Origin: Bacteroidota bacterium
GTDB taxonomy: Bacteria; Bacteroidota; Ignavibacteria; Ignavibacteriales; Ignavibacteriaceae
DNA: 64,000 nucleotides
NCBI GenBank assembly: GCA_021815405.1
Contig: JAKAGV010000008.1
Location: 124,001 to 188,000, forward strand
Direction: 5' to 3'
The notes under the pieces are model-generated. The model ran no database searches. It was not told where the DNA came from and saw only the letters and a list, made by a program, of their open reading frames with translations. Shown here one piece after another: positions 1,107-48,513 of this stretch; the first letter of the stretch is position 1; each line of letters starts with the position of its first letter. Position numbers and translations under genes: made by a program.

Positions 1107-2055
1107 TCATTTTGACGTAATAGTTATAGGCGCGGGAGCTGCCGGCTTAACTGCCGGCATTTATCTTTCCCGTGCAAAAGTAAATACTTTAATTCTGAAT
1201 GAGGGTACCGTCGGAGGTCAGATGGTACTTACTCATCAGATAGCTAATTATCCCGGCATCGAAAACATCAGCGGATATGAGCTTGCATCTAACATGAAAG
1301 CGCAAGCTCAAAAATTCGGATGCACAATAAAATCAAATGTTAAAATCACTTCTTTCGATCTTAAAGGCGAAACAAAGAAAATAATTGTTAATAATAAAGA
1401 TGAGTATACCTCCCATGCAGTTATAATTGCAACCGGAGGCAGACCAAGATCAGCAGGCGCATCCGGTGAGGAAGAATTTAAAGGTAAAGGAATTTCTTAC
1501 TGCGCAACTTGCGACGGTGACTTTTTTCAAGATAAAGAAATCGTTGTCCTCGGAGGCGGTAATTCTGCTCTTGAAGAAGCAGTTTCTTTAACAAAATATG
1601 CATCTAAAGTTACCATAGTCCATCAGTTTGATAACTTCCAGGCTTTCGAGCATTATGTTTCCGAAGCTAAGAAGAATCCGAAGATAAGCTTTATTATGGA
1701 ATCTAAAATTATCGAGTTTTCAGGTGATGAGAAGCTTAGGAAGATCAAAATCCAAAATCAAAAAGATTTTAATATTTCTGAAATGAATATTGATGGAGTA
1801 TTTATTTTTATCGGATATGTTCCCAACTCGGAAATGTTTCAGGAAATAATCGATCTAAACGAGAATAAAGAAATCATAGTTGATAAAAATATGCATACAA
1901 ATCTTCCCGGCGTATTTGCTGCGGGTGATAATGTAGCTAAAAGATACCGGCAGGTTACAACTGCTGTTGCAGATGGTACTATTGCCGCGTTAAGTGCAGC
2001 GGAGTTCGTTAACAATATAATAAAGAATGTTCATATTGAAGATACTATTGAGTGA
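1099..2055 (+). CDS. trxB: Thioredoxin reductase (NADPH, FAD)
   Basis: A 318-aa protein of the usual bacterial low-Mr thioredoxin reductase size. FAD-binding GxGxxG motif GAGAAGLTAG is at residues 11-20; the redox pair CATCDG is at C135 and C138; the NADPH-binding segment VVLGGGNSALEEA is near 150-162; the C-terminal FAD motif GVFAAGDN lies near 270. It transfers electrons from NADPH through FAD to thioredoxin-type partners in the cytosol. Start ATG 1099 lies inside the end of the thioredoxin-like gene, and its stop overlaps the next start (GTGA), so the three genes are translationally coupled. Its natural partner is probably the upstream unusual thioredoxin-like protein. Confidence 0.93.
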   Translation: MNNHFDVIVIGAGAAGLTAGIYLSRAKVNTLILNEGTVGGQMVLTHQIANYPGIENISGYELASNMKAQAQKFGCTIKSNVKITSFDLKGETKKIIVNNKDEYTSHAVIIATGGRPRSAGASGEEEFKGKGISYCATCDGDFFQDKEIVVLGGGNSALEEAVSLTKYASKVTIVHQFDNFQAFEHYVSEAKKNPKISFIMESKIIEFSGDEKLRKIKIQNQKDFNISEMNIDGVFIFIGYVPNSEMFQEIIDLNENKEIIVDKNMHTNLPGVFAAGDNVAKRYRQVTTAVADGTIAALSAAEFVNNIIKNVHIEDTIE

Positions 2056-2459
2056 AATTAGAAATGAATGTAAAACAATTAAAAGCAGCATTTGCTACGA
2101 ATGATGGTGTTAAAATAAGCAAGCATTTCGGGCGCGCAGAATATTTTGAAATAATCGAAATGAATGAAGATAAAATTATTTCAAGAGAAAGAAGAGCCAA
2201 TACCGGTGCACACCAACATCATACACATGATCATGAACACGGAGGCATGCACCATGAGCACGAAGGAAGGCATAACCAGATGGCGGAAATAATTAAGGAC
2301 TGCGATCACGTTATTGCAGGTGGAATGGGAACTCCTATTTATAATGCTCTCACCAGTCTCGGAAAGAAAGTTATTGTTACATCATTAAATAATATCGATG
2401 AGGCATTAGCTGAAATTTCTAAAGGTACAATCGTTAATCATACCGAGAAACTGCATTAA
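2052..2459 (+). CDS. Dinitrogenase iron-molybdenum cofactor (NifX/NafY/NifB-C-terminal) family protein, His-rich
   Basis: Encodes 135 aa from GTG 2052, or 131 aa from an in-frame ATG at 2064; the start is not settled because neither has a strong ribosome site. The fold signature is AFATNDGVKISKHFGRAEYF at the N-terminus, then DHVIAGGMGTPIYNAL and KVIVTS, typical of the small Fe-Mo-cofactor-binding family. Most non-Nif members are of unknown role and are thought to bind metal or FeS clusters. Between about residues 54 and 75 it carries a His-rich loop (HQHHTHDHEH then HHEHEGRH), so metal binding is likely. No nif genes are in the window. Coupling to trxB suggests a redox or FeS-related task (inference). 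Confidence 0.8.
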   Translation: MKLEMNVKQLKAAFATNDGVKISKHFGRAEYFEIIEMNEDKIISRERRANTGAHQHHTHDHEHGGMHHEHEGRHNQMAEIIKDCDHVIAGGMGTPIYNALTSLGKKVIVTSLNNIDEALAEISKGTIVNHTEKLH

Positions 2460-2473
2460 TTTTAATTATAAAG

Positions 2474-2598
2474 AAGGTATTGCTGGAAAATTGCTGACAG
2501 TAGAAATACTCTGTTAAAAGAATTTTTAATAAGTCTCTAATTTATGAGACTAATCTCTGAAGAAATATTTTCAAGACAAAATTTTTCAGCAATACCTT
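2474..2598. repeat. 125-bp inverted-repeat unit downstream of the NifX-like gene
   Basis: Left arm AAGGTATTGCTGGAAAATT (2474-2492) pairs with the right arm at 2580-2598 with about two mismatches. A second inverted repeat (AGTCTC / GAGACT) sits in the middle. It is either a terminator-like structure for the trx operon or a miniature transposable element abutting the family B repeat. No second copy is seen in the window. Confidence 0.6.
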
Positions 2599-2603
2599 TA
2601 AAT

Positions 2604-2726
2604 CTGAAGTTACGCAAAGAAATGTTTTTGTCATTCCGAACTTGATACGGAATCTCTTTTTCGTGTAATTTTTAGATGCTGAAACAAGTTCAGCATGACA
2701 TTCATAAGCTCCTGCGTAATCTCAGC
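2604..2726. repeat. Family B hairpin repeat, copy 1 (CTGAAGTTACGC subfamily)
   Basis: The ends CTGAAGTTACGC and GCGTAATCTCAG are near-inverted. Inside are the two family B hairpins: ATTCCGAACTTGATACGGAAT and ATGCTGAAACAAGTTCAGCAT. It lies between the convergent NifX-like and membrane-protein genes. Confidence 0.8.
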
Positions 2727-2755
2727 TTAAATGTTATTCTTACCTAAAATTTTTT

Positions 2756-3625
2756 CTAATTACTTTCTTCAGCCACAACAAGCAAGCCCAGCATTCCAAG
2801 GTCGCTGAATAAAAGTGGAGCTAATACTGGAGCAAAAGCTAAAATTCTTTCAAGGCTCAATGTTCCGGTTCCTGCTAAATCAGATGACAGGTGAAATCCA
2901 AAACCAAGTACACCGACAATAACAGCGCATATCATTGTCCAAAGGAAAACATTCTCATCTCCTTTTGTCCATTCCTTTGAAACAGCAAGGTATATAACTA
3001 CCGAAGAAGCAAACAAGCCGAATATAATCGGTATCATTTTATAAAAAGTATAACCGTACTGGGCATGATCAATTATAGAAGTAATCGTACTTGCCGCAAA
3101 TCCTAATCCAACAAGCCATAAGAAATGTCTATCTCTTGAAATTGGAGCTTTGAAAGTTCCAAGCCCGGAGATTTTAAGCATTCCGGGCTCATTATTAATT
3201 TCTTCTGTTACAGCGTATAAACCGAGTAATGAAATTCCGGCAAATGCCATAGGTGCTAATATCGGAGATCCAAATACAATCCATGCCCACGTTAGATAAC
3301 CTTCCGGATTAAGAACTGCATATGCATGAAATGCAGTTCCTAATACACCGATTATTATTCCTATCAGCATTAGTGCAATATGAATTAATGCAGTCCATTT
3401 CTTAGGCTGTGTCTGCAATCCGGCAAGTATGCAAGAAAGCGCACCGAAAGGAAAATAAATTATCGGTATCCATTCATAAACGGGCACGTAGCTGTTTATT
3501 GAATGTGCTAATGCTACATCAATTCCGGTAAACATTAAATTTATTCCGACAAACACTAAAAGCAGGCGGTTCTTAGCCATCGGAAGTTTAATGTTGGCTA
3601 AATGAAATATATTTATACTGCTCAT
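2756..3625 (-). CDS. Eight-helix membrane protein with internal duplication, partner of octaheme cytochrome
   Basis: A 289-aa protein with eight hydrophobic segments. The two halves align: GVLGTAFH (H100) matches GVLGFGFH (H245), H41 matches H187, and PILAPMAFAG...AVTEE matches PVLAPLLFSD...VVAEE. The His spacing is 59 and 58 residues in the two halves. A duplicated four-helix unit with two conserved His per half could ligate heme b or quinone, so a membrane electron-transfer subunit is plausible (inference). Its start overlaps the cytochrome gene stop by four bases (ATGA), so the two should be co-translated. I do not recognise a named family. The TonB, NrfD and NapC motifs I know are absent. 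Confidence 0.75.
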   Translation of the reverse strand: MSSINIFHLANIKLPMAKNRLLLVFVGINLMFTGIDVALAHSINSYVPVYEWIPIIYFPFGALSCILAGLQTQPKKWTALIHIALMLIGIIIGVLGTAFHAYAVLNPEGYLTWAWIVFGSPILAPMAFAGISLLGLYAVTEEINNEPGMLKISGLGTFKAPISRDRHFLWLVGLGFAASTITSIIDHAQYGYTFYKMIPIIFGLFASSVVIYLAVSKEWTKGDENVFLWTMICAVIVGVLGFGFHLSSDLAGTGTLSLERILAFAPVLAPLLFSDLGMLGLLVVAEESN

Positions 3626-4896
3626 TTTCTTACTCCTTGCTTATGAGCAGTGCGAAGTTCAGCCGCTTCTTCTTTTACTTTTGTAAGTTGTTTAAGAAGA
3701 GGATAAACGCCGTGCCACTGCACAAAATCAGGTCCTCCCATATAAGCACCAAACTTTGCTGTTCTTCCGTAATAATGCCACAAATCGAATGCATCAAAGC
3801 TAATTGCATTTGCAAATGGCTTTGATGAAATGATTCCATCTTTAACCAGTCCTTCCATTATTGCAGAAGCCTCTTTTACTTTTGAATTAACGAAAGCAGT
3901 TACGCTGTCGGCATTGGCATATTGTTCATCAATAAATTGACTCGAATGGCAATTTGCACAAATAGCTTTCATTGCTTGCCTGCCTTCAAAAGCATTAGGA
4001 CGATCTTGCGTAACAGCAGCAAATAAGAATTTCGAAAGCCTTTGCCCGACATCGTGAGTTGTACCTTGATTGCCGAAACCGCTCATATGGCAGGTAGCGC
4101 AAGTTGGTGCAGGCATATCTTTAGTTGTTAATCTTCCCGGTTTTTGACTCCAGTTCCACTTCGATCCGTCTGTCTGGTACATTACTCCATGAGCCGATTC
4201 ATGATAAATTTCCATCTGGGGATGATCCGGTCCTAAATGACACTGCCCGCATACTTCTGGTTTGCGAACTTGTTCAATGGAGAACTCATGGCGTAAATGG
4301 CATTTATTGCAGTTGCCAATACTTCCGTCAGGATTGGGTTTGCCTATTGCATGGCAAACCTGACACGCAGCTTTGGTAACAGAAGACCCTTCCATATCGA
4401 ATACAGCATTTCTGGTAGCGGTAATTATTCCAGCAGCGTCGCGATTTACTTCAGGAATTTGTTCAATTAGTTTCTGCTGTTCAGCATTAAAATCTGCAAA
4501 ACCGGTAAGCGCAACCCATGCAGGTCCGGCATGCCTGCTGTGTTCAAATTGTTTTGTTTCAGCCGGATGGCATTTTGCACATTGCTTTGGCGTAGGAGAT
4601 GAGGTTATAAAAAATCCTTCATGCTCTTTTCCCATTGGATTTGATCTATCCACGACATGACAATCAATGCATCTTACTCCGGAACGTGCCATTGTACTTT
4701 GCGAGAACTGTTGAACAATGTCAGGAGTAACACGATTATGGCAAGTTGCGCATTTATCTACACCTGAATATGAAACTTGTGAGACAGCTTGTTTTTCACC
4801 TCCGCTCGGCAGTGAAGTGAATAAGAAAATAATAAGAAGAACTACAATTGTAATTATGCTTCCCACAATTAATGTTCTTGGTAATTTTTGTGGCAT
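3622..4896 (-). CDS. Octaheme cytochrome c, hydroxylamine oxidoreductase-like, membrane anchored
   Basis: A 424-aa protein with one N-terminal membrane helix (about 9-30) and eight CxxCH motifs at C49, C76, C106, C178, C196, C216, C266 and C313, plus His residues in the gaps for distal ligation. Number and spacing fit the HAO/octaheme family, which interconverts nitrogen compounds (hydroxylamine, nitrite, hydrazine) in the periplasm. After the last heme comes GGPDFVQWHGVYPLL. From memory, catalytic HAOs have a Tyr there that crosslinks to heme P460; a Phe at that place would favour the reductive type (uncertain, needs alignment). The partner membrane protein overlaps it. The promoter carries a palindrome candidate (4990-5005). 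Confidence 0.85.
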   Translation of the reverse strand: MPQKLPRTLIVGSIITIVVLLIIFLFTSLPSGGEKQAVSQVSYSGVDKCATCHNRVTPDIVQQFSQSTMARSGVRCIDCHVVDRSNPMGKEHEGFFITSSPTPKQCAKCHPAETKQFEHSRHAGPAWVALTGFADFNAEQQKLIEQIPEVNRDAAGIITATRNAVFDMEGSSVTKAACQVCHAIGKPNPDGSIGNCNKCHLRHEFSIEQVRKPEVCGQCHLGPDHPQMEIYHESAHGVMYQTDGSKWNWSQKPGRLTTKDMPAPTCATCHMSGFGNQGTTHDVGQRLSKFLFAAVTQDRPNAFEGRQAMKAICANCHSSQFIDEQYANADSVTAFVNSKVKEASAIMEGLVKDGIISSKPFANAISFDAFDLWHYYGRTAKFGAYMGGPDFVQWHGVYPLLKQLTKVKEEAAELRTAHKQGVRK

Positions 4897-5005
4897 AATA
4901 GACCTAAAATTTGTGTTATTATTAAAATAAGAATTTTTCCGCAGAAAGACAGAATTAATTATTTATAATCTAATAATTGTAATAGTAGTATTTTAGACCT
5001 AAAAT
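4895..5005 (-). promoter_or_regulatory. Candidate operator pair upstream of the octaheme cytochrome gene
   Basis: ATTTTAG-AC-CTAAAAT at 4990-5005 is a perfect 7+7 inverted repeat with a 2-base spacer. A second copy with the same right half (TAGACCTAAAAT) lies at 4899-4910, about 95 bases away, overlapping the ribosome-binding region and start codon at 4896. Two copies with one over the translation start suggest repressor sites. The regulator is unknown. Confidence 0.45.
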
Positions 5006-5122
5006 CTTTTTGTATTCAAAAATGTTTTTAATGAGAAGATATTTTTCAAAATAAGATGAAGAAGTTTAATATAACTCTTTGCTCCTGGATAGACTTTTCA
5101 GATATTTAATCTAAAGATATGA

Positions 5123-5145
5123 GAGCGGGGAAAATTACCCCGCTC
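5123..5145 (-). terminator. GC-rich hairpin after the tricorn gene
   Basis: GAGCGGGG (5123-5130) pairs with CCCCGCTC (5138-5145) around a 7-base loop, 13 bases beyond the stop of the minus-strand protease gene. The minus-strand T tract is weak, so it may be a terminator or an mRNA 3'-end stabiliser. Confidence 0.6.
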
Positions 5146-5157
5146 CACAGAAATTTT

Positions 5158-8100
5158 TTATCTTATTTGATAAGGTGGCTGTTTCGGATGAACTGGGGGA
5201 TGCTCTTTCACTAACTGCATCTCTACTTCAATTGCTTTTTCAAGCTGCGGATCAATTCCTTTTGCAAGCTGTGCCTGATCGTCGACAACCTTTATGTCCG
5301 GATCGACTCCATGCCCTTCTGCAAACCACTTACCGTCGGGCAGATACATTCTGAAGGTAGGGACAGTTAAAAATCCTCCGTCAATAAGAGAAGGTGAACC
5401 GGAAATTCCAATAAGTCCTCCCCAAGTTCTCATGCCTATCAAAGGACCAATGCCAGCTTCTTTGAAGAATTCCGGGAAAGCATCTCCGCCTGAACCGCTC
5501 CATCCGTTAATCAACATTACTTTTGGACCGAATACTGCATACTGCGGCCATTGCCAATCTTTGCCGTCTCGTACTGCCCAGAATGCAAGCGGCTTTCTAT
5601 CTAACATTTCGATAAATCTATCCGGTATCTGTCCTCCGCTGTTAAATCTTTCATCGATTATTAAACCTTGTTTATCTATTTGAGCGGTAAATTGTTTTAC
5701 AAGGTCGTTCTGTCCTTCAATTCCAGTATCCTGAATATAAATGTACCCAATCTTGCCGTTAGTTTCATTTTCAACAACTTCTCTCTTTTGCTCAATCCAA
5801 TTAAGAAGCCTCAGCCTGCTTTCATCAGTCATCGTTTCAACCAGAATTTTCCATGCACCATCCATTGTTGGCTTGCTGTTAACTGTAAGCTCAACTGTTT
5901 TACCAGCAAGCCCCTGAAATGAAGCCCAGGGATCTTTTTTAATATCCATAGGTAAATCGTTTACTGCAAGGATGTAGTCCCCTTCTTTAACTTTTACTCC
6001 CGGCTGATTAAGTGGTGATCTTGTTTGCGAATCCCAAGGCGCTCCTTTAATAATCTTTTTAATTCGATAAGCACCGTTTGCAAGTTCCCAGTCGATGCCT
6101 AAATAACCAACGGGTCTTCTAACTTCTTTCTCAAGATCACCGCCTCCGCGGTACGTATGTGAAGAGCTCATTTCAGAAATCAGTTCTCCGATTACATAAT
6201 TTACATCAGATCTGGTCATAGCATAATCGATGAGTTTGCCGTAGCGCTCGCCCATTTCTTTCCAGTTAACTCCATGCATGTTTGGATCATAAAAGAAGTC
6301 TCTTTCGAAACGCCATGCATCGTTAAATATCTGGTGCCATTCTGCGCGCGGATTGATTGTCATTTCTATCTGGTCCGTTGGCATTTTCTTTTCAAGCTTC
6401 TGCTCTGGCGTAATATCGGTAATAAAATAAGATCCATCACCAGTGATTATCATCTTCTTACCATTAGCAGAAACCATATAGTTATTTATTCCATCCGCAA
6501 TAGTTTTCTCTTCCCTCTTTTCCAGGTCATAATATTCTACAGAATTCTTTTTTTCTGTTGAGCCTGTACGCGGAGCTTTTAAATAAATTACTTTGCCGGA
6601 TACTGCTTCAAGGTTATTATAATTTCCGGCTTCCGGCGGAAGTATAACTATCCTCGATTCCATTCCTTCAAAATCAATCTTAACTTCCTTTGACTTCTCT
6701 TCTTTCTTTTCCTCCTTTTTCTTTTCTTCCTCTTTCTTACCTTCCTCCTTTTCTTTCTTCTCTTCTTTCTTTACTGAAGTAGAATCATTCCTCGGTGCAA
6801 GTGGAGAAGCTTCATCGCTGCGAAGAGTTATTACTGCAATCTTTGTTGTGTTCGGATAAATAAAAGTATTATCAACATCGCTGTATAAAGGCGCAAATGT
6901 GTTATTGGTTAAAAAGTATAAATACTTTCCATCAGGATCAAAGCATGGTTGAGCATCATTATAATATCCGGAAGTAATCTGATGTATCTTGCCGTTGTTT
7001 ACATCATAAATACAAATTGAGCTGTGGAGATTGTCCATATCCTTGGCATATGCCAGCCATTTGCTGTCAGAAGACCAAGATACTGAAAATGATTCTAATC
7101 CTCCTTCATATTGAAACTTTTCCTTGTCAACTTTCGTAGTCTTGTTCTTGTCGATATCATAAATATAAATGTCCATGGCTTTATCTATAAAAGCAATCTT
7201 CTTGCTGTCGGGTGACCAGTAGAGATGATATCTGAATCCTGGTCCGTAGGAAGTCATCTTCTTTTCGGTTGACGGATTTTCAAAATCTTTAAGGTATAAT
7301 TCATATTCTCCTGAACGGTCGCTCCAATAAGCAGCATATCTGCCATCCGGTGACCATGCAGGAAATCTTTCAGCATAACCTGATGAATTGGTAAGATCAA
7401 CAATATTGCCATACTCAGCAGGTACCGAGAAGATATCGCCGCGTGCTTCAAATAATGCACGTTTTCCGTCCGGTGATATATAAAAATTCCTAATCATCTT
7501 CTCTACATTTTCAGTCTTCGGCATAAGTGTTATATCATCAGTAACAACTTCAATTTTTACTTCATGATATTTTTCAGTTGCAAGATCAAGCAAATATAAT
7601 TTTCCTCCTGCTTCAAAAACTATATCATTCGGTCCCAGCGATGGGAACTGAATATCAAAGTCCGAAAAGTTTGTGATCTGTCTTGTTTGTTTTGTAATCA
7701 AATCATAAGCCCAGATGTTTGCTCTTTCGTTCTTTCCTCTATCAGAAAGGAAGTAGATGGTATTACCATGCCACATCGGGAACTCATCATTTGCTGGATT
7801 ATCTGTAATATTCTCGGCTGTTCCCTTTTCAAAATTAAATATCCAGATATCAGCAGCCCAGCCGCCGCGGTATCTCTTCCATGTTCTATAAGCTTGGGAT
7901 TCGGGTGTATAAGCTATTTGCTTACCATCAGGAGATATCGAAGCAAATTCTCCGTATGGTATAATAAGCTTCTCAGGCATTCCGCCTTCTGCGGAGACTT
8001 TATAAAATTGATCGAATCTCTGCCTTCCACTTTCCATTGATGAAGCGTAAAGAAGATTTTTCCCATCCGGATACCAATCAACAATTCTATCCGGGTAACC

Positions 8101-39066: not shown

Positions 39067-39293
39067 AATCACTTTTAAATTTATCGAACTTGCTTTTACA
39101 AATATGTGATCTGGCTATGGAATCAGAAGTATAAATATTTTACAGCGTAGCCGAAAAACCAATGTATGCTTGATTTTAGACCAATAGATTAAAATAAAAA
39201 TATATTCTGAAAGAATAATTCCTGATGCAATTATAATTATGAATGCAAATATTAATTGCAGCTTTAATACTTTTTAAAGTACATTCCTTTCCA

Positions 39294-39504
39294 GCATCAC
39301 GAAGTGATGCAACACGAATAACCATGCGTGAAATGCATGGGAAGTAGGAAATCCAAATGTCATAGAACTACGAAGTAGTTCAACAATAACGCAGTCATAT
39401 TTGTTTATTTTTGTACTACCATTCGGTGGACTTGATTATCTATTCATAATCTTTCCGGCATCACGAAGTGATGCAACACGAATAACCACGCATGAAATGC
39501 ATGG
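39294..39504. repeat. Family C hairpin array, block 1
   Basis: Ordered hairpins with GAA triloops: GCATCAC-GAA-GTGATGC (39294-39310), CCATGCGT-GAA-ATGCATGG (39322-39340), GAACTAC-GAA-GTAGTTC (39365-39381), then again GCATCAC (39458-39474) and CCACGCAT (39486-39504). The first two hairpins of each set are separated by the fixed spacer AACACGAATAA. Confidence 0.9.
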
Positions 39505-39567
39505 GAATAAAAAATGATTAGTAAGGACTATAATTGTTTTTTATTATGGAATTAGTTAATTAGCAAT

Positions 39568-39927
39568 ATGCGATTATATTATGCTCGTAAAATAATACCC
39601 GGATTTACTGCTTTAGTTTCATCTGCCGCAATCATTTTAAATTTAATGGTTTATCAGGTAAACAGTGGCTTCTCTATAACGAAAACCGAGACTCCAAAAA
39701 TTTTTACTCAGCCAGCCTTTCATCTTGAAGCAGTAAATTTTCAAAATCCAAACATTACTAGAATAGAACTAAAAAATATTGTCTACAGTGTTTACGACAA
39801 GATAGAAGAACTTAATGATAATCTATTCTATACAGCAGTAAAACAAACTACTGTAAGAATACATTTTATACAACAAAAGCTTTCCTTTCAAAAATTTATT
39901 TCTGCTCATTTCGCTACAAGCACCTAA
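39568..39927 (+). CDS. Small membrane protein between hairpin arrays
   Basis: A 119-aa predicted product with a basic N-terminus (MRLYYARK), one hydrophobic segment (about 10-30) and a soluble C-terminal part. No family recognised. It is followed after 64 bases by a 41-aa membrane protein gene and an intrinsic terminator, which makes a two-gene unit plausible. The ribosome site is poor and codon use is not a strong guide, so it might be a chance frame. The unit is enclosed by two nearly identical family C blocks. Confidence 0.5.
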   Translation: MRLYYARKIIPGFTALVSSAAIILNLMVYQVNSGFSITKTETPKIFTQPAFHLEAVNFQNPNITRIELKNIVYSVYDKIEELNDNLFYTAVKQTTVRIHFIQQKLSFQKFISAHFATST

Positions 39928-39991
39928 TCCTTCATATAAACTCTCAATAATTTAATTTAAATAACTTTTAATAAAGTAAGAGGATTTTACT

Positions 39992-40117
39992 ATGCAGGAA
40001 TCTGTTAAAAAAGATAGTAAAGGATCTGGGATAATATTTTATTTACTTATTGGAGCTTTAGGCTTATCCCTAATTGGAGTTGTATTGTTTATTATTTATT
40101 CGCTAATCGTACAATAG
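39992..40117 (+). CDS. 41-aa single-helix membrane peptide
   Basis: ATG 39992 has AAGAGG at 39979-39984, about 7 bases upstream. The product starts MQESVKKDSKGSG, then one hydrophobic helix (IIFYLLIGALGLSLIGVVLF) and a short tail. An intrinsic terminator follows its stop directly. It resembles small subunit or stress peptides of membrane complexes, but no homolog can be named. It is too short for most gene callers. Confidence 0.65.
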   Translation: MQESVKKDSKGSGIIFYLLIGALGLSLIGVVLFIIYSLIVQ

Positions 40118-40137
40118 CAAATCCTTACTAAATAAGT

Positions 40138-40173
40138 GCGGAAGGTTTTAATTGTTAAAGCCTTCCGCTTTTT
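40138..40173 (+). terminator. Intrinsic terminator after the 41-aa peptide gene
   Basis: GCGGAAGG (40138-40145) pairs with CCTTCCGC (40161-40168), with the stem extended by T/A pairs around loop ATTG, then five T. Confidence 0.92.
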
Positions 40174-40382
40174 ATCTGCATTGTAATTAAAATAGTCAAT
40201 GAGAAAGAGTGAGGATGGGAATCGTTCTCTTAGCATGATAAATTGAAGAATCACTAAAATATAAAGCTGATTTTCTCTTGTCCTATTTTCTATTGTTCCA
40301 AACTACACCAGAGGCTTACTAACATAGTTATTCATATTCATCCCCTTTTCACGACTATGAAGATCTGTTCACATTCTTTCCG

Positions 40383-40633
40383 GCATCACGAAGTGATGCA
40401 ACACGAATAACCATGCATGAAATGCATGGGGAATAGGAAATCCAAATGTCATAGAACTACGAAGTAGTTCAACAATAAAACAGTCATATTTGTTTATTTT
40501 TGCGCTTCTATTCGACAGACATGATTATCTATTCGTAATCTTTCCGGCATCACGAAGTGATGCAACACGAATAACCACGCATGAAATGCGTGGGAATAAA
40601 AAAGATAAGAGATAAAGAACTACGAAGTAGTTC
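40383..40633. repeat. Family C hairpin array, block 2
   Basis: The same order as block 1: GCATCAC hairpin (40383-40399), CCATGCAT hairpin (40411-40429), GAACTAC hairpin (40454-40470), GCATCAC hairpin (40547-40563), CCACGCAT / ATGCGTGG (40575-40593), GAACTAC hairpin (40617-40633). The segment from 40375 to about 40600 matches 39285 to about 39515 as a direct repeat. It ends 40 bases before the transposase stop. Confidence 0.9.
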
Positions 40634-40672
40634 AACAAATTCAGGCGTTATCTTCTAAACAAAAAATGTACT

Positions 40673-41119
40673 CTAAAACAGGTAACGTTCATCAAATTTA
40701 ATTTGATGCTCTTTTAGCAGGCATATATACTCATCTTTAAACGATTTCTTCATATGATGTTCTTTCTGATTTTTTACATATTCTATCAGATTATCTTTCG
40801 CAGAAATTGAATAACTAAATGCACCGTAGCCAATCTGCCATCCGCCAAAATGAGGGAATATTTTTTCAGTCTTAATGAATTCATCTGCGGCAATCTTTAT
40901 ATCTTTGACTAGGTTTGCTATGGCTATTGTAGGATGTATATGAGTAATAATATGAATGTGTTCTTTCATACCGTTTATGCGGTACAAATGACAGTCCTTA
41001 TTTTTAAGTATACCAGCAATATAGCTGTATAGTTTATCTTGCCCCGATTCAATCATTGTTTCTTCACGGTTCTTTGTTGAAAATACTATTTGATACAAAA
41101 GCTGGGTATACGTGCTCAT
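40673..41119 (-). CDS. tnpA: IS200/IS605-type Y1 (HUH) transposase, REP-associated-like
   Basis: A 148-aa single-domain Y1 transposase of normal length (about 130-160). The HUH pair is H54-I-H56 in KEHIHIITHI; WQIGYGAFSYS (about 94-104) is the family segment before the catalytic helix, and Y114 in EYVKNQKEHH is the predicted nucleophile. Such enzymes move single-stranded DNA by recognising hairpins next to the element ends. Here no TnpB follows, and the gene lies amid the GAA-triloop hairpins of family C, which may be its recognition structures or mobilised remnants. It appears intact. No clear ribosome site. Confidence 0.9.
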   Translation of the reverse strand: MSTYTQLLYQIVFSTKNREETMIESGQDKLYSYIAGILKNKDCHLYRINGMKEHIHIITHIHPTIAIANLVKDIKIAADEFIKTEKIFPHFGGWQIGYGAFSYSISAKDNLIEYVKNQKEHHMKKSFKDEYICLLKEHQIKFDERYLF

Positions 41120-41216
41120 AATATTTTACCATTTTTTATTATCGAAAAAATAATTCGATTAAAATAAATATTCTAATTGAATTAACTCAATAAAACGACA
41201 TGAACCATTTTTTATT

Positions 41217-41480
41217 GAACCACTTCGTGGTTCGGTTTTTCTCCGTCTTTTTATTTCTTAGGGTTGCATTTTAGCAAGAGGCTTGCAGGCGTGGATACTC
41301 TCTTCTCTATGGATTGCATCCATAGTTATTATTGTTTAACCGCTTCGCGAATATGATGTTCTGTCAATAATTCTTTCCAGCATCACGAAGTGATGCAACA
41401 CGAATAACCATGCATGAAATGCATGGGAATAAAAAATCTATATGCAATAAAACTACTCAAAATTGACCGCTGTGCGGGAA
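41217..41480. repeat. Family C hairpins, upstream side of the transposase
   Basis: GAACCAC-TTC-GTGGTTC (41217-41233) is a hairpin of the opposite polarity (GAA loop on the minus strand). GCATCAC-GAA-GTGATGC (41380-41396) and CCATGCAT-GAA-ATGCATGG (41408-41426) repeat the array order. Then AACTAC and GAAGTAGTTC (about 41451-41478) form the third hairpin, split by about 21 extra bases. Confidence 0.85.
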
Positions 41481-41697: not shown

Positions 41698-41919
41698 TTA
41701 GTTTCTTTTCTCCGCGCTGAATTGTTTTGTTAATTCCTGCATCGACTGCATTCCTTTTACTGCCTCAAGGTCTTCCTCTGTTGACTTGCCTGATGAAGGA
41801 ATTACTTTGCACATTTCTTCTAAATCGCTTTTCAATGATTTAACCGTTTGCAAAATTTCCCGGTTTTCACTTATTACATCTTTGTAAATTTCGAAAAGAG
41901 CAAACACCCGTTCATACAT
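41698..41919 (-). CDS. Small coiled-coil protein downstream of the DUF4011 helicase
   Basis: A 73-aa product: acidic and Leu/Ile/Glu-rich, with a heptad-like N-terminal half (FALFEIYKDVISENREILQT) and a flexible Ser/Gly turn (IPSSGKSTEEDL). It follows the very large helicase gene on the same strand after 105 bases and could be an accessory subunit. There is no recognised family and the ribosome site is weak, so a hypothetical small protein is the honest call. Confidence 0.45.
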   Translation of the reverse strand: MYERVFALFEIYKDVISENREILQTVKSLKSDLEEMCKVIPSSGKSTEEDLEAVKGMQSMQELTKQFSAEKRN

Positions 41920-42024
41920 TTCAAACTTTGCTAATTATTCTTCGGTTAGCATAAATCCTCTTTTGATTAACTAACAATTGAATCTAGCATTTTCAGAACG
42001 CAAAAAGTTTTTTCTTAGACTGAA

Positions 42025-45000
42025 TTAGTTTTCTGCTAATACAAAACGATCATTTTGTTTGATAATAATTTCTTTCCTTAGAGCGTAATCAATACTTAAC
42101 TTTATAACATCTTCTACATTCTCTCCAATGCGTGAATAGCCAAAAATATGTGCAACTTCTTTTATTAAATCTTCCTTAGGAAGACTAAACTGTACAGTTA
42201 AAACTTCTCTAATACCGTTTATAATTTCCTCTTTAGCTATATCCTCTGCATCGCGCTTATTATCTTCTTCACCTGGTACTCGAAATAAATTATAATTCTC
42301 TATTTCTTGATCATTTCGCCAATAGAAATAAGAATCTTTTTGAGTTGTCTTTTTTAAATTTAATTGATGGTATAGACTAGACAAGTATTCGTTTAATCTG
42401 ACACCTAAACGAGTTATTCCCCATGCATTTAATATTCTTTTTGATAAAAGCTCATGTCTAATCGGAGCTTCTATTTCAATAATTTTTTTAATCTGATGAA
42501 TTATTTGTGCTCTAAAATTTGGATCGAAGAAATTATCAGAATTATACAATTGTTTTTTATCAAGTTCACAGCATTTGTACAAAGAAAATATGTTTGTTGG
42601 CTGAACTATTTCTCTTGAAGTATTTTTAAGTACTTGCTTGTATTGTTTATCATCTATTACTTTAATTATTTTATCATCTCTAGGTTCATTTTTGTTAACA
42701 ACCTGTACTTTATTAATTTTTTCAATAATATCTTGAATAATTTTTTGAGGATTTTCCCACCAATCGGGAGACCACAGTTTATAAATATTCCAACCTAACA
42801 TTTTTAATACATCTATTTGAATAATCTCACGATCCTTTGCTGTCCTAGCAGCATTATAGTTATCTCCATCTGTAAGTATACCTAAAATAAATTCCGACTG
42901 TTTTTCGGGATTGACTATTCCGATGTCAATTTTAAAACCAGAACAACCTATATCAGTCTTAACTTGAAATCCTTGTTTCCGAATTTCATCAGCAACCAAC
43001 TCCTCAAAGTACTTAGGGACTGACTTTTTTATAATATTTTTTTGAGGTAATGCTCGTTTACCTTTTTCCGTATACGCTAAAAATGCTTTGAAGTTTGCAA
43101 TTTCATCTGACTTACTTCGTGAAATATCAATCTGATCTGAACGCAGTGTAGAAAAAATTTTCATTTCATAACGTGCTCTTGATATAGCAACATTTAGTCT
43201 TCTCCATCCGCCTTTTCTAACTAAGGGACCAAAATTAAGATATACCTTACCTTCTATGTCAGGGCCATAACCAATAGAGAATAAAATCACGTCACGCTCG
43301 TCTCCCTGAACATTTTCTAAATTCTTTATAAAAATAGGCTCGGTAGATTCCATTGCAACCTTTTCTAGCTCCGGATTATTTTTAAATTCTTCATTTAACA
43401 TATCCTCTATTAAGTTTTGTTGCACCGAACTAAATGTTACAATTCCAATGCTTCTTTGAGCTAAATTTTTATCAGACAAACGTTTTAGAACTTCATCAAC
43501 AATTGCTTTTGCCTCAAATTTATTTTGTGCTGTTTTTCCTCTGTCATAATGTCCCGGCACAAATATATTAGTTACTTTAGTAGTTAAATCATCCGGTGAA
43601 GGGAAAGTCAATAATGAATTTTCATAAAAGTTAGAATTACTAAATGCAATAAGACTCTCATGTTTGCTGCGATAATGCCATAATAAATGTCTCGAAGGCA
43701 TTGATAAAACGGAACAATCATCTAAAATGCTTTCTAAATCTTCTAAGTCAGCATTTTCTTCATCACTTTGGTTCGTTGAAAAGAAACTTGTCGGGGGCAT
43801 TTGTTTGGGATCGCCTACTATGATAGCATTTTTTCCACGTGCAATTGCACCAACAGCTTCACATGTAGGTAATTGAGAAGCCTCATCAAAAACTACCAAA
43901 TCGAATTTAGATTTATCAACTTCAAAATATTGTGCAACTGAAATCGGACTCATGAGCATACAGGGACAAATTCTAGGCAGTAAGTTCGGGATTGAGTCAA
44001 ACAATTTTCTAATTGACATCGCTCGCCCACCATTTCGAATTGCTCTCTGTAGAATTCCGATTTCCGAATTATTTACAGCCTCATTTGTAAATGAAGGTAT
44101 TCTAGATGCCAGCTTAGCATAAAGTTCTTGTTTTGTTAACTCTTCAAAAAGTTTACTTTGTTCTCTAAACCTATTTATTTTCCCTTCAAACAGTTTCCCA
44201 TTGAATATCGATAAAGCGGAATCATTACATATTATATATTCTGCAAAATGCTTATATAAAGACTTTTTGAAACTTAAAAGCACCTCCTCGTTCTTTAATT
44301 TACCTTTTTCATATGAGTTCATTACCTGAGATAAACCTGCTGCGATTGCTCTTTCTTTAATTTGATTCCAACTCACCCAATTTTTTAAAGATTCAATATT
44401 TGATAACCAATTTTCCGCCTTATTCTTCCAGAATACCTTCCAATCAATTGAATTATCACATTCAAATAAGAAATTGATTCTTAATAAATCTGTTAATGCA
44501 GCTTCAAGGCTATCTAGTTGACTAAAAGAATCTACATAACCTAAAAATACTTTACCCTTAACCTCAATAAATGAACTACTTCCCTGAGATAATTGAATTG
44601 ATAAACGCTCTTTCATTTTATTTGACTTTGATATATCGCCAGCGAGCTTTATAAATAACAGATGCATCTGAAAACTCAATTCGCAAATTTTAGTTACAGT
44701 AGACCATTTTGGATTTCCATCATTCCACAAAAAATCTAATTCAAGTCTTAATGTCTTTTCATTTTCGTCTAGCCGGCTTTGTTCGGACTGGTAAGCAATT
44801 ATTTTTTCCAGAAACTTTGTAACATTTGATTTATCAATTACGCCAGATTTAGAAATAAGATTAAGTGATTTTAATATTTTTTTTTGCCCCAAAAATCTTG
44901 GCAAAAACCATTTTTGCGATAGAGTATTCCATTCAGCTAATTTTGCTTCTGCCTCATATACTAAAATATCTTTTTTGAAAGTACTCAATAATGCATCTTT

Positions 45001-47913
45001 ATAAGTATCTCGTTTTTCACCATGTTCAGCTAGCTTTTTAATCCTATTATAATTAACGTCTGGATGTTCTATTGTTATCAAACTTGTCGGTGTATCAGGT
45101 AAAGAGGTTGCTAATTCGGCAATTTGTTTTAACCATAGTGTCTTTTCCTTGTTAAATATTTCATGCTCGATTTCTAAAATCTCACATAACGCTTTCTTGA
45201 AGGCTAAATGCTCCTCTATTACTACGATATATTTCGAAATTAATTCTGATGCTTTTGTTTTAATCTCTTGTGAATAGACATTTGAAGTGATTTCTGTTAA
45301 AGGATGATTGTATGGATTTCCACAAAGTGTTCCTGCATTTTGCAACTCCTCAACCAAATCGCAATATTGTATGTACTTTTCTTTTTCTAATTTTTCAATA
45401 AAAGTTTTTTCAAACTGAATATTATCGGAAACATTATTGAGCCCTGCATATCCAGTAAATGAGTCAAATAACGAAAAGCCGAAAGAATATTTTTTATGCA
45501 GCGCATGAACATATTCATTTAATTCCAACCTTTGCTTAGAAAGACGCTCAGCTTTAGCGGTAAATTCAATTGGAGAAGTTTTTAGTACTACTTCAGTTAT
45601 TTTTTGCAGTTGTTCCAGTACTGATGATTTTTTTGATTTATTTGAGTGCAGCTCAAGACAAAAAGTGCCTAACCCAATATCTGCTAATCTTTTCTGGACA
45701 ACAGATAGAGCAGCCATTTTCTCTGCTACAAAAAGAACTCTCTTACCATTGTATAATGCATTTGCTATTATATTAGTAATGGTTTGAGATTTGCCTGTTC
45801 CAGGAGGACCATGGAGAATAAAACTTCTTTCTTTCATCGCATCGCAAATAGACTCCAACTGACTTGAATCAGCACTAATAGGCAATACAATCTCAGATGG
45901 ATTATATTCATTATCTAAATCTATGTTTGCACTTCTTTCATCCAACGCCCATTCTCGTTTTCCGGAGATTAAACTTGAGACAATTTTATTTTCTTTTAAT
46001 TTATCAGAATTCTTATTTATATCGTTCCACATTATGAACTTACTGAATGAGAATATTCCAAGAAAGGAGTGTTCTTCCAAATCCCATCTTGTCTGGGACA
46101 TAATCTCCCTTCTAATATTATTAAATATTTTTACTACGTCCACACCGCTCTCATCGCGTGGAAGTTCTTCTAAGCCTTTAATGTTAATTTTGAAGTCTTG
46201 TTTAAGCTTCTCTAAAAGAGTTATATTCATTATAGTATCTTCTCCCCTACTTCTAATGACATAACCTATTTGAGCAGACTTTCTAATTATTTCAATAGGC
46301 AAAAGTAAGATTGGTGCATAACGAGCTAGTTCACTTAGAGGAGTTTCATACCATTTCAAAAAACCTAGGGCTAAATACAAAGTGTTAGCCCCGTTTTCTT
46401 CTATGGATAAACGAGAAGTTCGATATAGTTTTGTTAAACTATTTCTTAATTCTGATTCTGTTAAATATGTACGAAGGCGTTTGTGTGTAAGTTCATACTT
46501 CAGTAAATCAACAATTGGGTCAGACATATTTACTGCTTGATAAACTCCAGACCTTACATTTGAATTTACCCATTCTTCCGGTTTCGGTAATAACTGAAAT
46601 TCATCACCGTTGGCTAAGGCATCTTCAAAAGTATTTAAACTGATTGAGAATAATTGGATAGTACTTTGTGTGATTCTAAGATTTAGAAGATTATTTCTTA
46701 AACTTAAATCCAGAAGTTTTCGCTCCCACAATTTTTGTTTAGTAAAATGTCCATCGGCAGTTACAATTGATACTTCAGTGTTTTCAATATTATCCGGAGC
46801 TTTGCTTTCTCTTAATTCAAATTCTTTTTCTTCTATAACTTCCCAGCCATTTAAAGTTTTTACCCTTTGAGGAAGAGGTTTTATCCCACTAAATCTTGCA
46901 CGTTTTATATCAATAAATAAAACAAAATCATCTTCTTTGACCAACTTATAATTAGCGGAATTAATTGCATCGTCAAACGACTGATTTATACCAGCATTCA
47001 TAAAAGTAGCTTCGACTAATACAATTTCATTAATCCCTTTCGCAGAATGTTTTTTTAATAAAGATACATCATAATTTACGCTATCTACAAATGTTTCATT
47101 AATTATCCACGCTCCTACGAACGCATGTCCATTTATAATAATTAAAAGTGGATTTAAGCCGATTGCTTCGATACAACTTGCATATAAAATAGCCATATCG
47201 ATGCATGTACCTAATTTTTGTGAAAATATAGTATCGCAAGTTCTAATCCGTTGACCTTCTTTTTCAAAACTTGCAGGCGGAGTACAATAGACAATTCCTT
47301 CATTAACAATAGATTCAAATATTGCGCCCATTTGTTTTTTTACTCGGTCAGAATTTAGACTCTGATATGCGTCAAAAGACGGATTCGAAGTCCAACCTTT
47401 AAGTATAACTGAAGCTTTTTGTACAATATTAGATATCTCAGGATGGTTTGGAGTAACAAAAGCGGTTAGCATTTCAGGTAAAGTACTCACACCATTCCAT
47501 TGGTCATAAGCTAAAATCTCAACGTTATAGTTTTGATTAAATAATTCTTTATCATCTGCAAAGACTGAGAGGTTCAACTCACCCGCAAGTTTTTCAGTCA
47601 ATTCAGCTAGAAAATTAGAAGAAAGATTAAGACCTTTAACCTCAATTTCAATACTTTGCTCTTTAGGAAGCAAATCAATTCTATGTTTCCAAATATTTCC
47701 GAACTCTGGTTTACAGGTAATAGTTATTTCTATATCAAATAAGTCTGCTTCCGAAATATTACCAATAATTAATTTTCTGACGATAGGGATTCTGTTTTGT
47801 TGTATTGCATAATTTGCAACTGATGTATAATAAAATTCTACATTTAATAATTTTTTCGGGAGGTCAGTTTGGTTTATGCCAGTTTCATTCATAAGTAAAT
47901 TTCCCATTCTCAC
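42025..47913 (-). CDS. DUF4011 / SF1 helicase / Vsr-like nuclease / DUF3320 mega-protein, putative defence
   Basis: A 1962-aa protein. The N-terminal part (about 210-330) has a transglutaminase-like pattern: LGTCIDMAILYAS with Cys near 233 and GHAFVGAW. DUF4011 begins near 405 (LWERKLLDLSLRNNLLNLRI). Walker A GPPGTGKSQT is at about 702, Walker B FDEASQLPTCEA at about 1340, and the SF1 motifs HYRSKHESLI, NVQGDERDVI and LNVAISRARYEM follow. A Vsr/DUF559-like nuclease lies at about 1640-1730 (CSGFKIDIGI, GILTDGDNYN, LGWNIYKLWS), and DUF3320 at about 1790-1850. This is the architecture known in defence proteins of the DUF4011-helicase-Vsr (Hhe) type, expected to act on foreign DNA (established by analogy, not shown here). 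Confidence 0.88.
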   Translation of the reverse strand: MRMGNLLMNETGINQTDLPKKLLNVEFYYTSVANYAIQQNRIPIVRKLIIGNISEADLFDIEITITCKPEFGNIWKHRIDLLPKEQSIEIEVKGLNLSSNFLAELTEKLAGELNLSVFADDKELFNQNYNVEILAYDQWNGVSTLPEMLTAFVTPNHPEISNIVQKASVILKGWTSNPSFDAYQSLNSDRVKKQMGAIFESIVNEGIVYCTPPASFEKEGQRIRTCDTIFSQKLGTCIDMAILYASCIEAIGLNPLLIIINGHAFVGAWIINETFVDSVNYDVSLLKKHSAKGINEIVLVEATFMNAGINQSFDDAINSANYKLVKEDDFVLFIDIKRARFSGIKPLPQRVKTLNGWEVIEEKEFELRESKAPDNIENTEVSIVTADGHFTKQKLWERKLLDLSLRNNLLNLRITQSTIQLFSISLNTFEDALANGDEFQLLPKPEEWVNSNVRSGVYQAVNMSDPIVDLLKYELTHKRLRTYLTESELRNSLTKLYRTSRLSIEENGANTLYLALGFLKWYETPLSELARYAPILLLPIEIIRKSAQIGYVIRSRGEDTIMNITLLEKLKQDFKINIKGLEELPRDESGVDVVKIFNNIRREIMSQTRWDLEEHSFLGIFSFSKFIMWNDINKNSDKLKENKIVSSLISGKREWALDERSANIDLDNEYNPSEIVLPISADSSQLESICDAMKERSFILHGPPGTGKSQTITNIIANALYNGKRVLFVAEKMAALSVVQKRLADIGLGTFCLELHSNKSKKSSVLEQLQKITEVVLKTSPIEFTAKAERLSKQRLELNEYVHALHKKYSFGFSLFDSFTGYAGLNNVSDNIQFEKTFIEKLEKEKYIQYCDLVEELQNAGTLCGNPYNHPLTEITSNVYSQEIKTKASELISKYIVVIEEHLAFKKALCEILEIEHEIFNKEKTLWLKQIAELATSLPDTPTSLITIEHPDVNYNRIKKLAEHGEKRDTYKDALLSTFKKDILVYEAEAKLAEWNTLSQKWFLPRFLGQKKILKSLNLISKSGVIDKSNVTKFLEKIIAYQSEQSRLDENEKTLRLELDFLWNDGNPKWSTVTKICELSFQMHLLFIKLAGDISKSNKMKERLSIQLSQGSSSFIEVKGKVFLGYVDSFSQLDSLEAALTDLLRINFLFECDNSIDWKVFWKNKAENWLSNIESLKNWVSWNQIKERAIAAGLSQVMNSYEKGKLKNEEVLLSFKKSLYKHFAEYIICNDSALSIFNGKLFEGKINRFREQSKLFEELTKQELYAKLASRIPSFTNEAVNNSEIGILQRAIRNGGRAMSIRKLFDSIPNLLPRICPCMLMSPISVAQYFEVDKSKFDLVVFDEASQLPTCEAVGAIARGKNAIIVGDPKQMPPTSFFSTNQSDEENADLEDLESILDDCSVLSMPSRHLLWHYRSKHESLIAFSNSNFYENSLLTFPSPDDLTTKVTNIFVPGHYDRGKTAQNKFEAKAIVDEVLKRLSDKNLAQRSIGIVTFSSVQQNLIEDMLNEEFKNNPELEKVAMESTEPIFIKNLENVQGDERDVILFSIGYGPDIEGKVYLNFGPLVRKGGWRRLNVAISRARYEMKIFSTLRSDQIDISRSKSDEIANFKAFLAYTEKGKRALPQKNIIKKSVPKYFEELVADEIRKQGFQVKTDIGCSGFKIDIGIVNPEKQSEFILGILTDGDNYNAARTAKDREIIQIDVLKMLGWNIYKLWSPDWWENPQKIIQDIIEKINKVQVVNKNEPRDDKIIKVIDDKQYKQVLKNTSREIVQPTNIFSLYKCCELDKKQLYNSDNFFDPNFRAQIIHQIKKIIEIEAPIRHELLSKRILNAWGITRLGVRLNEYLSSLYHQLNLKKTTQKDSYFYWRNDQEIENYNLFRVPGEEDNKRDAEDIAKEEIINGIREVLTVQFSLPKEDLIKEVAHIFGYSRIGENVEDVIKLSIDYALRKEIIIKQNDRFVLAEN

Positions 47914-48513
47914 TTTTTAATTAAATTCATTGACTTTCTTGACTTTGTAAAGGTATTCTTTAATCAGCTTATTCTTCATCATGCAGCTTTAGAAGTAATA
48001 ATTATTAGAATTTGATATTAGATCATTTTGGATATGGGAATTATTATGTAAAAGCATTCGGAACAGTATCCCCTTTAACAACTATATATTTTCAAAGTAG
48101 TACTTTTTCATGCACTCATATTAACAAAATTTTCCAAAAGATAAAATTAATCTTAATAAAATTTTTATAATGCAATAATCCACAAGTCAGCAGCCCGCTT
48201 AGATTTCATCCACCTCGTCTTCCTCAATTCCTAATCGTGCTTCCAAATCCATTATTGTCTCTATAACAAATTCATGCAATCCCCAATCGGCTTCATCATT
48301 ATCTTGGATTATCTGATTAATCTTAATCCTTCTCTTAATTGTAATCTTACTCGTATTTTTAATCCGATTAGGAGAAAGATTACGACTGCCGAGTATCATC
48401 AGTTATTAAATAATGCGCTAACCTTTATACTTCTAATTTTTCTATCGGAATCTGAATTGACAATATTTCACAACCAAAACCGCGTAGCGGTGAAATATTA
48501 CTAAAGAAACCGG
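47914..48513. other. 600-bp gap upstream of the helicase gene
   Basis: Holds the helicase promoter, not placed. A 66-codon minus-strand frame at 48199-48399 ends in VIETIMDLEARLGIEEDEVD, which has an acyl-carrier-protein-like helix pattern but lacks the DSL phosphopantetheine motif and a ribosome site. ACCGC-GTA-GCGGT (about 48479-48491) is a small hairpin just before the family D element. Confidence 0.4.

Follow-up and report, generated by a model that had tools for sequence, protein, structure and literature searches.

Proteins that join a transglutaminase (TGase) domain to an SF-I helicase, a Vsr nuclease and wHTH domains were described in 2013 among HEPN-bearing proteins (PMC3710099). The sections of that paper dealing with this architecture propose that the TGase adds a protein-cleaving line of defense, and that the wHTH domains, of which DUF3320 is one, recognize DNA without a modification enzyme. 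The relevant portion of PMC12799240 describes Hachiman HamMAB, in which one component of a DNA-sensing helicase system carries a fused protease, and this protease activates a nuclease. Related models exist in NCBIfam, as the DUF4011 anti-phage protein Hhe (NF042953) and the equivalog antiphage_ProA (NF058533), and in PADLOC, as the candidate PDC-S37. Our literature search found no paper behind the anti-phage ProA name among the matches listed and no paper naming PDC-S37, and the available excerpts of PMC9122126 and PMC13092281 make no mention of Hhe or Vsr. According to the excerpt of PMC10250203, all P. aeruginosa isolates under study share a DUF4011 gene as part of the core genome, which is unlike an optional defense gene.

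We analyzed a stretch of 64,000 nucleotides (hereafter, the window) that carries one large gene of this kind. Its product scores 2221 bits against NF058533 (cut-off 1500), with profile positions 1-1903 of 1903 aligned on residues 34-1928, and is a member of the ProA family with no measurable difference from it. Its combination of domains is already known, both as this named family and from the 2013 publication. NF058533 also passes six TGase-less proteins (L018-L023), so the ProA name does not imply a TGase domain. PDC-S37 scores 1234 bits over residues 395-1955; the match to this model, which has 1550 positions, begins only at residue 395 and leaves the first 394 residues uncovered. An initial sequence-only reading had proposed a defense-type protein, which agrees with the ProA and PDC-S37 matches, and had set the TGase-like segment and DUF3320 apart as additions to the known DUF4011-helicase-Vsr proteins; the combination is not new, given the earlier description with a proposed protein-cleavage role in the pertinent section of PMC3710099.

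The window protein shares with the proteins in that section the TGase, the SF-I helicase, the MTES_1575 Vsr-type nuclease, a wHTH overlapping DUF3320 and the lack of a modification enzyme. A possible difference is HEPN, which they carry and which is not among the 22 Pfam matches (E ≤ 1) to the whole window protein. Hhe matches its helicase and nuclease halves (802.6 bits), but identity with Hhe was rejected, as the cut-off is 2000 and the best stretch covers residues 1010-1766 only. HamMAB, as far as the consulted portion of PMC12799240 describes it, resembles ProA in having a protease fused N-terminally to a partner of a DNA-sensing helicase, and differs in its trypsin-like protease, separate HamB helicase and separate MBL-fold pro-nuclease gene; we claim no homology between the two. 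No partner nuclease gene was seen adjoining the window copy, in which the nuclease sits in the ProA chain itself. The gene and the parts of its product are located in the window as follows.

42025..47913, minus strand: ProA-family gene, one ORF, 1962 codons long, starting with GTG
47509..47856, minus strand: N-terminal beta-sandwich, residues 20-135 (AlphaFold2 model; VIA-align matches)
46864..47508, minus strand: TGase-like domain, residues 136-350 (AlphaFold2 model and fold matches)
47203..47205, minus strand: Cys237, presumed nucleophile (C in 26/26 rows)
47125..47127, minus strand: His263, presumed catalytic base (H in 26/26 rows)
47011..47013, minus strand: Glu301, presumed third catalytic residue (E in 26/26 rows; model strand 297-301)
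46204..46719, minus strand: DUF4011, residues 399-570 (Pfam 5.9e-46)
45637..45870, minus strand: first half of the SF1 helicase, AAA_11, residues 682-759 (Pfam best stretch 1e-18; Walker A GPPGTGKS at 702-709)
43876..43887, minus strand: Walker B/DEAS box, residues 1343-1346 (alignment conservation)
43153..43698, minus strand: second half of the SF1 helicase, AAA_12, residues 1406-1587 (Pfam 7.2e-17)
42715..43008, minus strand: MTES_1575 (Vsr-like) nuclease (REase), residues 1636-1733 (Pfam 4.4e-27; conserved Asp1663, Asp1682 and Arg1695)
42394..42537, minus strand: DUF3320 winged helix, residues 1793-1840 (Pfam 1.6e-14)
42049..42228, minus strand: possible second winged helix, residues ~1896-1955 (by eye, after the two-wHTH architecture of 2013 in the cited section of PMC3710099; no family match)

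The sequence-only reading had placed one 1962-aa gene at these coordinates without giving a strand, and a single ORF on the minus strand accounts for it; a plus-strand reading was rejected because stops run throughout that frame. Translation could equally well start from an ATG, at codon 3 or at codon 8. Both N-terminal motifs that had been quoted occur in the protein; numbered from the GTG, their residues are Cys237 and His263, while the proposed "Cys 233" fits neither this count nor that from the ATG at codon 8, which gives Cys230. The order DUF4011, helicase, Vsr-like nuclease and DUF3320 was as predicted (Pfam), with the N-terminal beta-sandwich as an addition. Among solved structures, the relatives of the helicase are IGHMBP2/SMUBP-2, SEN1 and UPF1-type proteins. 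Promoter-like sites occur at chance level (32 found versus 34.3 expected).

Sequence profiles alone make a weak case for a TGase in the N-terminal region. DUF553 scores 13.2 bits on the whole protein (E 0.063), below the Pfam gathering score of 20.5, and 15.4 bits (E 0.013) on the cut N-terminus, where it is outscored by the unrelated name VtrA_C (E 0.0022). Four of the 17 aligned N-termini match Transglut_core at E ≤ 0.1, at best 0.0076, which is likewise below the Pfam cut-off, and a profile search of solved structures with the N-termini returned a single irrelevant match (E 0.82). We then turned to structure models. Residues 1-396, modeled with AlphaFold2 and six relatives (mean pLDDT 71.7), form a beta-sandwich at 20-135 followed by an alpha/beta domain, with a low-confidence linker at 344-396. 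The beta-sandwich aligns (VIA-align Z up to 10.5) with Ig-like/beta-sandwich domains of protein 4.2, glycosidases and transglutaminases; because it filled the fold matches of this model, residues 136-350 were modeled alone with seven relatives (AlphaFold2; pLDDT 81.1, pTM 0.85). Foldseek placed the putative protease 3kd4 (E 0.0039), an axonemal chain and PNGase in its top rows, with no match at E ≤ 0.001. VIA-align listed PNGase, Cytophaga and Parabacteroides proteases (3kd4, 3isr), TGase 4xz7, LapG, transglutaminase 2, Rad4/XPC and menin at Z 6-9.1, a range in which best Z values of 7-8 are common by the tool's own account. PNGase, the proteases, the TGases, LapG, Rad4/XPC and menin are known to share the transglutaminase fold. 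Since the match list agrees on this one fold, and the model places Cys237 at the start of a helix (from residue 237) and His263 on the strands after it, there is good support from the model for residues 136-350 having a transglutaminase-type fold, at moderate scores. Thus, the structure prediction and fold search that had been proposed for the N-terminus returned transglutaminase-type matches and not the absence of this fold, and the predicted domain, which lies below Pfam cut-offs, is supported by the fold together with its invariant Cys and His.

To compare active-site residues across the family, we used an alignment of 50 frames, 26 with the TGase domain (the window copy included, and with L036/L037 and L034/L039 as near-copies) and 24 without. 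Cys237, Asp239, Gly262, His263, Trp269, Glu301, Thr303, Asp335 and Arg340 are identical in all 26 domain-bearing rows. Glu301 is a candidate for the third catalytic residue because of its position at the end of the strand that comes next after the one bearing His263; a set of Cys, His and an acidic third residue is therefore presumed to be present in the domain. In the helicase, 47 of the 50 rows have the Walker Lys708 and three are gapped there, and both D and E of the DEAS box occur in 49 of 50 (one gapped). The helicase motifs and nuclease residues Asp1663 and Asp1682 are kept with and without the TGase domain, save gaps and single exceptions, and Asp1682 is replaced by Leu in one TGase-less row. 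TGase-less relatives thus retain the DNA part, for which the TGase module is dispensable.

A tree of the core from DUF4011 to the nuclease places all 26 domain-bearing rows, out of 47, on one side of a single branch (SH-aLRT 91), with one change observed versus 15.6 in shuffles. Three of the 24 frames counted as TGase-less (L071, L073 and L077) begin at a contig edge and may lack the domain for that reason alone; two of them (L073 and L077) are among the 21 rows taken as TGase-less in this tree; dropping these two still gave one change (26 versus 19 rows), and dropping the two longest rows as well gave a 43-row tree with the same single branch (26 versus 17, SH-aLRT 100). The L017 N-terminal frame, L029 and L071 have too little core and were left out of the 47-row tree, while L035 (a near-copy of L034) and L066-L070 (the same records as L033-L037) had been dropped beforehand. 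The L017 core row was labeled TGase-bearing by hand, as its domain lies in the adjacent frame. The sample was partly drawn with domain queries, which favors domain-bearing rows, and the tree is a quick LG+G4 tree, midpoint-rooted, with long branches and near-copies, so gain and loss look alike in it. Based on the residues identical in 26/26 rows and the position of domain-bearing rows on one side of one branch, we consider it probable that a single event, gain or loss, separated copies with the TGase module from those without it, and that the module has been kept catalytically intact. As far as these alignments go, the N-terminal domain seems to be a constant part of one entire side of the family, with its catalytic residues intact, and not an occasional add-on.

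This conservation bears on the strongest alternative, that the transglutaminase-fold domain binds protein or DNA as a scaffold without catalysis, like its counterparts in Rad4/XPC and protein 4.2, and that defense is left to the helicase-nuclease. In favor of this, the fold matches include Rad4/XPC (VIA-align Z 7.3-7.9), protein 4.2 and menin; TGase-less relatives exist; and known scaffolds of the transglutaminase fold lack the catalytic cysteine. However, a mere scaffold would not need Cys237, His263, Glu301, Asp239 and Trp269 to be identical in 26/26 rows, and we consider this explanation unlikely.

If the module is an enzyme, it may act on its own chain or on other proteins. Self-processing would have the peptidase cut its own chain, for example in the linker at 344-396, to release or unleash the nuclease; this linker has low confidence in the model, and protease-activated pro-nucleases exist in antiviral systems (the cited portion of PMC12799240). 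TGase-less relatives, however, have the same helicase-nuclease with no protease in the stretches of flank covered, which argues that the nuclease is not generally in need of cutting, and self-processing seems quite unlikely. A TGase encoded as a separate gene near TGase-less relatives was rejected, with no matches at E ≤ 10 among 1966 ORFs at 23 loci, where the flank is only ~1.5 kb in 14 of the 23. The domain may instead be a deamidase, an amidase or a crosslinking transglutaminase and not a peptidase. The fold matches include PNGase, transglutaminase 2, an amide synthase and N-acetyltransferases beside proteases, and the fold is silent on the reaction; we regard this, too, as rather improbable.

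To see how widely the gene occurs, we searched 395 genomes of the phylum. The ProA profile matches in 63 of them at E ≤ 1e-100 and over its cut-off in 22, and among 13 genomes of the genus it is found in one, the window's own. The TGase-domain profile matches in 33 of the 395 genomes at E ≤ 1e-5 and, at E ≤ 1e-70, at 17 places in 16 genomes. At 16 of these 17 places, the frames are 1747-2031 residues long and are also ProA matches; the remaining place is a 480-residue half of a split copy. At L017, ProA is split into overlapping frames (140-1579 and 1285-5415) that separate the TGase part from the helicase-nuclease; the split may be genuine, or it may reflect a damaged gene or an error of assembly. 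Weaker domain-profile matches (E 7e-20 or weaker) are in different proteins, judged by frame length, with 6 of 20 such places inspected. Six stand-alone proteins (L102-L107, 260-543 aa) match the ProA TGase profile at 5e-23 to 3e-16; they have no Pfam match at E ≤ 0.01 and therefore form no bridge to Transglut_core. A two-gene version in the phylum was rejected, since among 64 ORFs at 6 of the 20 weak places the window protein matches only six TGase-like proteins and no helicase.

A search of 72,556 plasmid records with the N-terminus gave matches in 76, of which 53 span at least 80% of the query, with hosts that include Acinetobacter, Raoultella, Klebsiella and Rhizobium. In the three plasmid regions inspected, the Klebsiella copy is flanked on both sides by IS110-family transposases, the Acinetobacter copy adjoins an integrase and has HipA, Fic and WYL genes near, and the Bacteroides copy adjoins a reverse transcriptase gene. 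A search of E. coli genomes with the initial 4000 bases of this Klebsiella gene gave no close match. Four of 50,697 phage records match the N-terminus (one covers 95%), and seven viral-contig records carry full-length copies. Two viral-contig ProA proteins (L036 5274-11894 and L037 1147-7767; 2207 aa) carry an additional ~200 residues within the helicase part (query 893-1176 versus subject 900-1388). Downstream of the Pontibacter burrus copy, at L032 14032-20612, lie a 533-aa unclassified gene, a PLD-like protein, a PDDEXK_4 protein and a 286-aa unclassified gene; this PDDEXK_4 protein matches PADLOC PDC-S26 (4e-117). The nearest relative of the window protein (L091, genome G385, 67% identity) lies between ordinary genes. 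Beside it, at L091 5590-5943 on the minus strand, there is also a 117-aa fragment of a RhuM-family gene, which matches profile positions 1-44 of 252 only. A housekeeping role as a DNA-repair or replication-fork helicase-nuclease would fit the IGHMBP2/SEN1/UPF1 type of the SF1 helicase by sequence and the core DUF4011 gene of P. aeruginosa (excerpt of PMC10250203), but it is very unlikely given presence in 1/13 genus genomes, the copies on plasmids and viral contigs, and the anti-phage NCBIfam name.

Our preferred reading, to which we give an even chance as a whole, is that ProA is a horizontally spread, single-gene, DNA-targeting defense protein with both its nuclease and a cysteine-peptidase-like effector under the control of its helicase. 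The winged helices and the DUF4011/SF1 helicase would engage invading or aberrant DNA, and ATP-driven movement would position the Vsr-like nuclease for DNA cutting. In the same DNA-engaged state, the N-terminal domain may be activated as a cysteine peptidase of transglutaminase fold (Cys237-His263-Glu301) and would then cleave or otherwise modify a protein, either a cell or phage target or ProA's own linkers. Here, we infer the defense role of the window copy, the DNA trigger and catalysis by the N-terminal domain from the NCBIfam and PADLOC matches, the transglutaminase fold, the invariant Cys/His/Glu, the conserved helicase-nuclease motifs and the single-branch module, together with the patchy spread, the viral-contig copies, the Pontibacter neighbors and the HamMAB precedent (as given in the cited portion of PMC12799240). 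Counted against this are the absence of other defense-family matches among the scanned neighbors of the window copy, the ordinary genes around the nearest relative, the core DUF4011 gene of P. aeruginosa (excerpt of PMC10250203), the TGase-less relatives and the moderate fold scores.

More tentatively, and with a chance well below even, ProA with the module may be a one-polypeptide, two-strike immune enzyme, in which a Cys-His-Glu peptidase, licensed once the helicase has engaged DNA, would kill or arrest the cell through a specific protein cut if DNA cleavage fails, the module having entered or left once with its active site kept. The reaction type of a Cys-His-Glu transglutaminase-fold peptidase is not used by antiviral systems in the cited sections of the literature. 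The close TGase-less relatives are natural controls for the role of a transglutaminase fold on a DNA-targeting defense helicase, and that role is now directly testable.

The surroundings of the window copy include no matched defense families (two neighbors compared with PADLOC and 10 with Pfam). The flanking GH92 gene has homologs in 12 of 13 genus genomes, the window genome included, and the ProA gene is absent from all six relatives' GH92 regions compared; these six regions share little gene order with the window, so an insertion boundary cannot be drawn. Two small ORFs without a Pfam match lie on the same strand as the gene, one just upstream (48202-48402, minus, 67 aa) and one just downstream (41701-41934, minus, 78 aa), the latter with a weak PHROG match of unknown function (E 0.0047). 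The sequence-only reading had seen mobile-element debris next to the gene. A mobile element is indeed there, as a 148-aa transposase ORF (40673-41119, minus) amid repeats, but debris is a loose term for it, as its Y1/IS200-like transposase domain (Pfam) is full-length. Five copies of a palindromic unit of ~45-85 nt (window 39286-41456) flank this ORF, and together they are presumably a REP element with its own transposase (RAYT).
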